Origin: Antrihabitans stalagmiti
GTDB lineage: Bacteria > Actinomycetota > Actinomycetes > Mycobacteriales > Mycobacteriaceae
Direction: 5' to 3'
Length of the DNA stretch: 64,000 nucleotides
NCBI RefSeq assembly: GCF_016482825.1
Contig: NZ_JAEMNV010000006.1
Location: 124,001 to 188,000 of the forward strand
Of the stretch, positions 48,277 to 58,816 are shown piece by piece. Made by a program: the position numbers and the translations under genes. The notes below the pieces were generated by a model. The model was not told where the DNA came from. It was given only the letters and a program-made list of their open reading frames with translations, and did no database searches. Within the stretch, counting starts at the first letter, position 1. Each line of letters opens with the position of its first letter.

Positions 48277-49476
48277 CTAGCGCTGTTGCGCGTTTGCCCA
48301 CCTGATCAGATCGCCCCTGTCGAGCGCTACGGCGAGCAACTCGGGGAACTGATCGGGTGTGCAGGCGAATGCTGGAATACCAAGCGCTGCAAGTGCGCTC
48401 GCGTTGTCGTGATCGAACGACGGTGCGCCGTCGTCGGACAGCGCGAGCAGCACCACAACTTGTACGCCCGACTCCTTCATCGAGCCGATCCGTCGCAGCA
48501 TCTGCTCGCGGACCCCGCCTTCGTAGAGGTCGGAGATCAGCACGAACAACGATTCGGTCGGCCTCGTGATGAGCGACTGGCAGTAGGCGATCGCCCGATT
48601 GATGTCGGTGCCGCCGCCGAGTTGAGTACCGAAGAGAACGTCGACAGGATCTTCCAACTTGTCCGTCAAATCGACCACCGCCGTATCGAATACGACGAGT
48701 GACGTCTTGAGCGAGCGCATCGACGCAAGCACGGCACCGAACACCGACGCGTAGACGACGCTCGACGCCATCGATCCTGATTGGTCGATGGCCAGCACCA
48801 CGTCGCGGTGCACGGCTTGGGCTCGACGGCCGTAGCCGACCAGACGTTCCGGCACCACGGTCTTGTGCTCGGGTAGGTAGTGGCCGAGGTTCTTTCGAAT
48901 CGTGCGATCCCAGTCGACGTCACGCAGTTTCGGCCGCGACGTTCGGGTCGCTCGGTTGATGACGCCGGTGACGGCAGCTGTCGTCTTGGACGCGATCCGA
49001 CGCTCGATGTCGCGAACCACCTTCTCGACGACCATTCGCGCTGTCGCCTTGGTGGTTTCGGGCATCACCCGATTGAGGCTCAGCAGCGTCCCCACCAGGT
49101 GTACATCGGGTTCGACTGCTTCGAGCAACTCGGGTTCGAGCAGCAGCTGTGTCAGGTTCAGTCGCTCGATCGCGTCCTTCTGCATCACCTGCACGACGCT
49201 GTTCGGGAAGTATGTGCGAATGTCGCCGAGCCACCGCGACACCCGGGGCGCCGAGCTACCGAGGCCGCCGGCTTTGCGCTTGCTGTCCGATGCCGAGCTT
49301 TCGGAATCGGAGTCGTACAGCGCAGCGAGCGCGCCGTCCATTGCGCGGTCGTCTTTGCCTGCGAGCCCACCCAGCCCTTCGTCGGCAGCCTTGCCCAGCG
49401 CCAGGCGCCAGCGGCGGAGGCGTTCGTAGTCGTCGGTGTTTTGGGTGTTCGGTTCGGTCTTGCTTGGTTCGGTCAT
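48277..49476 (-). CDS. VWA domain protein (CoxE-like), last gene of the SNF2-MoxR operon
   Basis: This 399-residue protein ends with a von Willebrand A domain (about 225-399). The MIDAS motif DQSGSMASS, a second metal-site threonine region (LGGGTDINRAI) and VLISDLYEGG are visible. The N-terminal 220 residues are helical with an acidic Ser-rich loop near residue 55. MoxR-type AAA+ ATPases typically work with VWA partners as metal- or cofactor-inserting chaperones or remodelling machines, and one is encoded two genes upstream. Its start overlaps the DUF5682 stop (ATGA). Confidence 0.9.
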   Translation of the reverse strand: MTEPSKTEPNTQNTDDYERLRRWRLALGKAADEGLGGLAGKDDRAMDGALAALYDSDSESSASDSKRKAGGLGSSAPRVSRWLGDIRTYFPNSVVQVMQKDAIERLNLTQLLLEPELLEAVEPDVHLVGTLLSLNRVMPETTKATARMVVEKVVRDIERRIASKTTAAVTGVINRATRTSRPKLRDVDWDRTIRKNLGHYLPEHKTVVPERLVGYGRRAQAVHRDVVLAIDQSGSMASSVVYASVFGAVLASMRSLKTSLVVFDTAVVDLTDKLEDPVDVLFGTQLGGGTDINRAIAYCQSLITRPTESLFVLISDLYEGGVREQMLRRIGSMKESGVQVVVLLALSDDGAPSFDHDNASALAALGIPAFACTPDQFPELLAVALDRGDLIRWANAQQR

Positions 49477-58500: not shown

Positions 58501-58816
58501 GCGGTTTGGGTTCGCGGTTCTGCGGCATCGCGGCGATCACGAGCGCGACCACGTGTTTGCAGTCGAACTCGACCGGGCAGGTGCAGTTGCCTTCCACGAA
58601 GCCGCCGCCGTGCTCCAAGTCGAACAGGGCCGTGGCCTCGTAGTAATCGCCGACGCTGCCTTCGATGATTCCGTCGAGCGCCTCGTCCTTCGGATACCAC
58701 CTCATCTGCCGCACCTCGTGCAGCTTCGCGTGCATCATCCCCCGAGCAAACGTCGCCGGCCCGACCGATTCCTCCAAATCGGCCAGATCGTCGTACGTGA
58801 ATGCGTTTCCCACCAT
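55556..58816 (-). CDS. SNF2-family helicase with N-terminal SWIM domain
   Basis: ATG 58816 (or GTG 58813) gives about 1,086 residues. A SWIM motif lies near the start ([17 protein letters not shown]). The SNF2 core occupies the last 480 residues: [15 protein letters not shown] (Walker A), [11 protein letters not shown] (DEAQ), [19 protein letters not shown], and [20 protein letters not shown] with [15 protein letters not shown]. It is a double-stranded DNA translocase or nucleoprotein remodeller. It is the first gene of the six-gene operon. An in-frame extension to 59038 lacks good initiation and reads through the AT-rich control region. The half-sites at 58957-59003 lie about 140 bp upstream. 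Confidence 0.92.
   Translation of the reverse strand: [1086 protein letters not shown]

Follow-up and report, generated by a model that had tools for sequence, protein, structure and literature searches.

A conserved MoxR–VWA–DUF5682 unit with SWIM and DUF5691 partners, examined from an operon of Antrihabitans stalagmiti

The operon and its gene families

We analyzed a stretch of 64,000 nucleotides from the actinobacterium Antrihabitans stalagmiti (contig NZ_JAEMNV010000006.1, positions 124,001 to 188,000; hereafter the window, numbered from its first letter). Its minus strand carries, at positions 48277–58816, an operon filled by six genes. From the upstream end, these encode a SNF2 translocase of 1086 amino acids (aa) with an N-terminal SWIM finger (55556–58816; Pfam SNF2-rel_dom, E 2.1e-66, and Helicase_C, E 1.6e-21); a 435-aa SWIM zinc-finger protein with the motif CxC-x6-CxH (54252–55559; Pfam SWIM, E 4.5e-6); a 486-aa DUF5691 protein (52795–54255; PF18944, E 6.8e-104); a 370-aa YehL-type MoxR AAA+ ATPase (51686–52798; AAA_5, E 4.4e-36); a 738-aa DUF5682 protein (49473–51689; PF18934, E 1.1e-266); and a 399-aa CoxE-type VWA protein (48277–49476; VWA_CoxE, E 5.3e-51). 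All five junctions are 4-bp stop/start overlaps. The coordinates, overlaps, and Pfam matches confirm the layout and families given in an earlier note on this DNA, and the gene spacing supports its proposal of a single transcription unit. The SWIM finger that the same note placed in the SNF2 protein can be read in the sequence as CxC-x5-CxH, but its Pfam score of 19.5 bits falls just below the cut-off of 19.6. Use of a GTG at 59038, upstream of the called start, would make the SNF2 protein longer.

Five of the six genes form a conserved unit

A DUF5682 profile retrieved at least 585 relatives in named genomes, of which the best 80 were fetched with their surroundings, a sample biased toward actinobacteria. 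The SWIM, DUF5691, MoxR, DUF5682, and VWA genes are all present in 70 of these 80 loci, and contig ends cut seven of the ten loci that lack the full set. The remaining three are cyanobacterial: the first (L043) has no VWA gene, and the upstream side of its locus is cut; the second (L054) has neither MoxR nor VWA; and the third (L076) keeps VWA in the absence of MoxR, SWIM, and DUF5691. Independently, 296 genomes were drawn from the phylum, among them that of the window. DUF5682 is present in 21 of them and DUF5691 over cut-off in 18; in every one of those 18, DUF5682 lies on the same contig, at most 3.4 kb away. DUF5691 matches below cut-off occur in three further genomes of the 296, all without DUF5682. 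DUF5682 occurs without DUF5691 in three of the 21 genomes (G050, G182, and G316), and in G182 it stands with DUF4132, MoxR, and VWA genes, the arrangement found in Escherichia coli (see below). Plasmids also carry these loci: the SWIM/DUF5691 type is found on plasmids of Deinococcus, Hymenobacter, and Methylosinus, and the DUF4132 type on one of Iodobacter. Five of the six genes are thus one conserved unit. The joint function that had been proposed for all six is supported for these five and is not supported for SNF2, and the converse possibility that the genes are usually found apart fails for the five.

The actinobacterial genome G050 has two further arrangements. In one (L110:9105-12833), DUF5682 is fused to VWA and adjoins a 1629-aa open reading frame (ORF) without a match; in the other (L111:8809-11943), a distant DUF5682 (98 bits) lies near a MoxR gene.

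SNF2 is distributed differently. Among 61 genomes surveyed, including the window's own, a full-length relative (one whose unbroken alignment starts no later than residue 19 and reaches at least residue 1084) is present in 15 besides the window's own; G044, whose SNF2 match is in two pieces and which also lacks DUF5682, was excluded. DUF5682 was not found in 11 of these 15 genomes, one of which is 82% complete, and lies on another contig in two more. DUF5682 and SNF2 are 3.9 or 6.2 kb apart in the last two, both of the window's genus. Of the complete loci, 57 extend more than 3.5 kb beyond SWIM on the upstream side, and in one of these, from the same genus, SNF2 stands beside the unit. SNF2 appears once among the 80 fetched loci, in Antrihabitans stalactiti, where it is separated from SWIM by 2.3 kb (L100:10306-12656) containing an ORF that resembles PPE/WXG100 below Pfam cut-offs, an unmatched ORF, and a DUF3558 protein. 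The window also encodes a DUF3558 protein, at 44074–44979. L099, a locus in a further genome of this genus, has SNF2 adjoining SWIM. On its distribution, SNF2 was rejected as a core part: it is a local neighbor, coupled to the unit in the window and outside what is conserved, and we regard it as a genus-level passenger or optional partner. The earlier argument for a DNA-linked remodeler, which appealed to two ATP-driven engines in one operon, is therefore weak. Membership in the Dpd, Zorya, or DISARM systems by way of SNF2 is likewise not supported, since its scores of 60.1, 240.4, and 98.4 bits for DpdE, ZorD, and DrmD_b lie below the NCBIfam equivalog cut-offs of 500, 1500, and 950, despite 774 bits with PADLOC model PDLC02851, labeled DpdE.

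Within the unit, SWIM and DUF5691 form a single ORF in 19 of the 70 complete loci (for example, L010), and in nine of the 70 (eight Streptomyces and one Streptantibioticus) they are transcribed divergently from MoxR. The motif CxC-x6-CxH is mostly conserved among relatives of the SWIM protein. Profile searches of the Protein Data Bank (PDB) gave a best E of 0.14 for DUF5691, which the earlier note described as a helical-repeat protein, and no relative under E 0.05 for the SWIM protein.

MoxR, VWA, and the E. coli yeh cluster

Over 362 aa, the MoxR protein shares 40% identity with E. coli YehL (E 4e-79). It carries Walker A (GVPGTAKT), Walker B, ATAN, and LRRRF motifs. Walker B usually has the form Asp-Glu; here, it is a Glu-Glu pair (E165-E166), which is invariant in all 19 sequences compared, YehL included. 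The VWA protein, whose gene is linked to MoxR, shares 36.5% identity with YehP across 364 aa and keeps residues like those of a metal ion-dependent adhesion site (MIDAS): DQSGS, GGTD, and SD. The VWA domain, at 164–379, is the only one that Pfam finds in its 399 aa, and its profile found no PDB relative under E 0.1. Judged by the YehL-like AAA+ domain and the linked VWA gene, the MoxR of the window appears to belong to the YehL subfamily, which is named as a MoxR subfamily in PMC3893208 and PMC11432383.

The E. coli cluster yehI-yehK-yehL-yehM-yehP-yehQ, in a record labeled as a plasmid, has MoxR, DUF5682, and VWA genes in the same order as in the window. Among 5,426 complete genomes of E. coli, a yehL–yehQ query matched 5,311, with coverage of 80% or more in 5,155; the yehL-yehM-yehP cluster is near-core in this species. 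The two clusters share homologous MoxR, DUF5682, and CoxE-type VWA proteins (yehL-yehM-yehP) as well as the presence of a SWIM protein. They differ in that E. coli has the DUF4132 protein YehI and no DUF5691 that we could find (DUF5691 against YehI by blastp gave no match better than E 1.3). Moreover, the SWIM protein YehQ is longer than that of the window and shows no detected similarity to it by blastp or hidden Markov model, and no SNF2 is annotated in the E. coli stretch examined. Because the E. coli-type core has DUF4132 and a different SWIM protein alongside, SWIM and DUF5691 may be regarded as a replaceable module.

The predicted fold of DUF5682

Predicted structures of DUF5682 divide into an N-terminal domain (approximately residues 10–225) resembling the TIKI/EreA/ChaN fold and a C-terminal helical region (approximately 400–707). 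Neither model had a Foldseek match at E ≤ 0.001. The fold assignment comes from a re-examination of Foldseek's own match list with VIA-align, in which ranks 4–14 are all drawn from the TIKI/EreA/ChaN group before a gap to 5.0, and ChaN is the best named match within the group. The models therefore suggest that the N-terminal domain has the parallel beta-sheet core of this fold. The C-terminal half matches many unrelated helical repeats and is uninformative.

H23/H24, E47, R185, and H212 of DUF5682 are invariant and may correspond to the 2His/2Glu catalytic set plus conserved basic residue of the fold group, with R22 possibly in place of the first Glu. Against 12 erythromycin esterases, hhalign gave only control-level scores, TraB and ChaN not being among the families compared, and no member of the fold group was among the matches of the DUF5682 profile to PDB sequences. 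The group is very diverse, however, and profile similarity does not define it. DUF5682 differs from the TIKI/EreA/ChaN/HopBA1/RRSP group in having no detected profile similarity to the erythromycin esterases, in its large extra helical region, and in its operon with an AAA+ ATPase. Of the fold families, TraB was found in 1 of 119 genomes, ChaN in 0, and Ere in 15. Hydrolase activity is not universal among members of this fold.

Upstream region and neighboring genes

An AT-rich perfect inverted repeat, AACTATAAAT-N11-ATTTATAGTT, lies upstream of SNF2 at 58975–59005 in this G+C-rich genome. The pattern is absent from the other fetched loci except L087, which is the window's own copy; it is possibly an operator. 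Among SOS motifs, an exact GAACN4GTTC occurs once in the window, within the SWIM gene at 55155, and never upstream of the operon. A longer SOS box with up to three mismatches matched 34 times against 23.4 expected, a count reached by 6 of 100 shuffles, and never upstream of SNF2; CTGTN8ACAG was not found in the E. coli stretch examined. With no box upstream, SOS regulation of the operon was rejected. According to PMC8533742, depletion of DdrO in Deinococcus radiodurans raises two proteins, one with DUF4132 and one with WGR, and the same paper says that MolR was described as LexA-regulated; a link to stress or DNA damage is therefore possible.

The divergent neighbor of the operon, at 59118–61202 (+), encodes a protein whose C-terminal domain is Tox-REase-5 (E 1.6e-9). 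It is followed at 61233–61625 (+) by a small ORF without a Pfam match that may be an immunity gene, and at 61890–62138 (+) by a small Cro/C1-type helix-turn-helix protein (HTH_3, E 2.1e-15). On the minus strand, a NADAR-domain protein (63288–63845; E 2e-48) is followed by a VWA-like ORF (62581–63351; DRSGSM) with no Pfam match. Farther off, at 38250–43703 (−), a single 1817-aa protein combines biotin carboxylase, biotin-lipoyl, and carboxyl-transferase domains.

Discussion

The conserved five-gene set probably makes an ATP-driven protein-handling machine. The form of it that we tentatively favor, at somewhat less than even confidence, is a conserved MoxR–VWA–DUF5682 assembly in which DUF5682 serves as a hydrolase or scaffold and SWIM and DUF5691 provide targeting. 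This reading draws on the conserved unit, the gene fusions, and the E. coli counterpart, together with the predicted fold and the invariant residues. By analogy with its family, MoxR would be an ATP-driven ring, and the CoxE-type VWA protein, like those of known MoxR/VWA pairs, would be its MIDAS-dependent adaptor. DUF5682, a predicted TIKI/EreA/ChaN-fold domain followed by a helical scaffold, would be the working subunit, either cutting or binding, and SWIM and DUF5691, often one polypeptide, would be the replaceable targeting module. In such a machine, a target chosen by SWIM/DUF5691 would be brought to MoxR by the VWA protein and uncovered by ATP-driven remodeling, after which the DUF5682 domain would cut or modify it. 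A narrower version is possible but doubtful: a new ATP-dependent protein processor present in several phyla and near-core in E. coli, which joins a MoxR ring and a VWA adaptor to DUF5682 as a TIKI-fold endopeptidase and takes its targeting from SWIM/DUF5691 or from DUF4132 with a different SWIM protein. We found no paper naming DUF5682 or DUF5691, in a search that did not cover MoxR with TIKI by name.

The strongest rival, which we consider rather unlikely, is a maturation chaperone in the manner of NorQ/NorD or CoxD/CoxE, in which MoxR and VWA would remodel a metalloenzyme while DUF5682 binds heme or a metal for insertion and cuts nothing. Known MoxR/VWA pairs do carry out maturation. RavA–ViaA, NorQ–NorD, and CoxD–CoxE each combine a MoxR AAA+ protein with a MIDAS-bearing VWA partner in chaperone-like roles, although they belong to other MoxR subfamilies, and no DUF5682, SWIM, or DUF5691 partner is described for them in the parts of PMC3893208 and PMC11432383 drawn on here. 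The VWA protein of the window is itself CoxE-type, and ChaN, the best named match within the fold group, binds heme. PMC8533742 raises a possible involvement of a DUF4132 protein and MolR with molybdopterin or molybdate, but also reports moeA and moeB unchanged. No metalloenzyme gene is a constant neighbor of the unit, whose shared flanking families are lineage-limited (many are probably antisense ORFs), and the invariant His/Glu/Arg/His set of DUF5682 looks enzyme-like.

It is improbable that the unit is an anti-phage or conflict system related to the MoxR–VWA ones, in which the rapidly changing DUF5691 would act as sensor. The appeal of this reading lies partly in the ternary systems described in PMC7159879, in which a MoxR–VWA pair like that of the window is joined by VMAP, iSTAND, FtsH, or a beta-propeller. 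None of these four was among the Pfam matches of the six proteins, Pfam's coverage of them being unchecked, and bpMoxR scored 20.8 bits against a cut-off of 27. Unlike in those systems, the window's VWA protein carries no effector fusion, and Pfam finds no effector domain in the unit. A toxin-like gene and the NADAR gene do lie near the operon, and DUF5691 is the fastest-diverging member: mean identities to the window across 75 loci are 79% for MoxR, 70% for VWA, 56% for DUF5682, 45% for SWIM, and 36% for DUF5691, the last spanning under half the protein in six loci. Among three members of the window's genus, DUF5691 is 41, 44, and 54% identical, whereas MoxR is 90% identical in all three pairs. 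However, the ratio of nonsynonymous to synonymous substitution rates is 0.02–0.17 for all five genes in six close pairs. There is therefore no gene-wide diversifying selection, and selection on the unit is purifying.

Genomic context also speaks against a conflict system. Filtering by codon-position G+C yielded 375 ORFs in the flanks of 45 actinobacterial loci. We scanned the nearest four per locus shorter than 900 aa, taking the first 149 and dropping four long ones, which left 145 ORFs from 39 loci. These match 146 Pfam families, the best 25 of which are mainly metabolic. PADLOC at E 1e-10 matched 55 families, as raw counts without a matched control set, and none of the best 25 of these has more than five members (mad2 has five, the Csx1 and Cas12f/Cas12u models have at most three, and others, such as PD-T4-6, occur singly). 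The OrfB_IS605 transposase is also found in three members of the flank set. A defence-island setting was rejected on these counts. At E 0.01, PADLOC had no match for the five unit proteins themselves. In ten loci (Streptomyces, Streptantibioticus, and Catenulispora), the unit has a B12-binding gene on one side and sucC on the other. In viral contigs, a pattern-based scan found no confirmed relative, and one of 50,697 phage records matched, an unannotated 14-kb fecal contig. Together with near-core conservation in E. coli, these results leave the phage-conflict role raised by the earlier note with little support. A six-protein DNA or nucleoprotein remodeler with SNF2 as its core engine, the view of that note, is very improbable: the 4-bp overlap of SNF2 with SWIM and their adjacency in L099 favor it, but the distribution of SNF2 across loci and genomes and the 2.3-kb gap in A. 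stalactiti do not.

The conserved MoxR–VWA–DUF5682 unit bears directly on E. coli, since the predicted hydrolase fold and its specific candidate residues open the uncharacterized, near-core yehL-yehM-yehP-yehQ locus to tests by point mutation. If the DUF5682 domain cuts proteins, the unit would be a bacterial ATP-driven protease that pairs a MoxR ring with a TIKI-type enzyme. A domain confined to cofactor binding would instead add the unit to the MoxR/VWA maturation chaperones.
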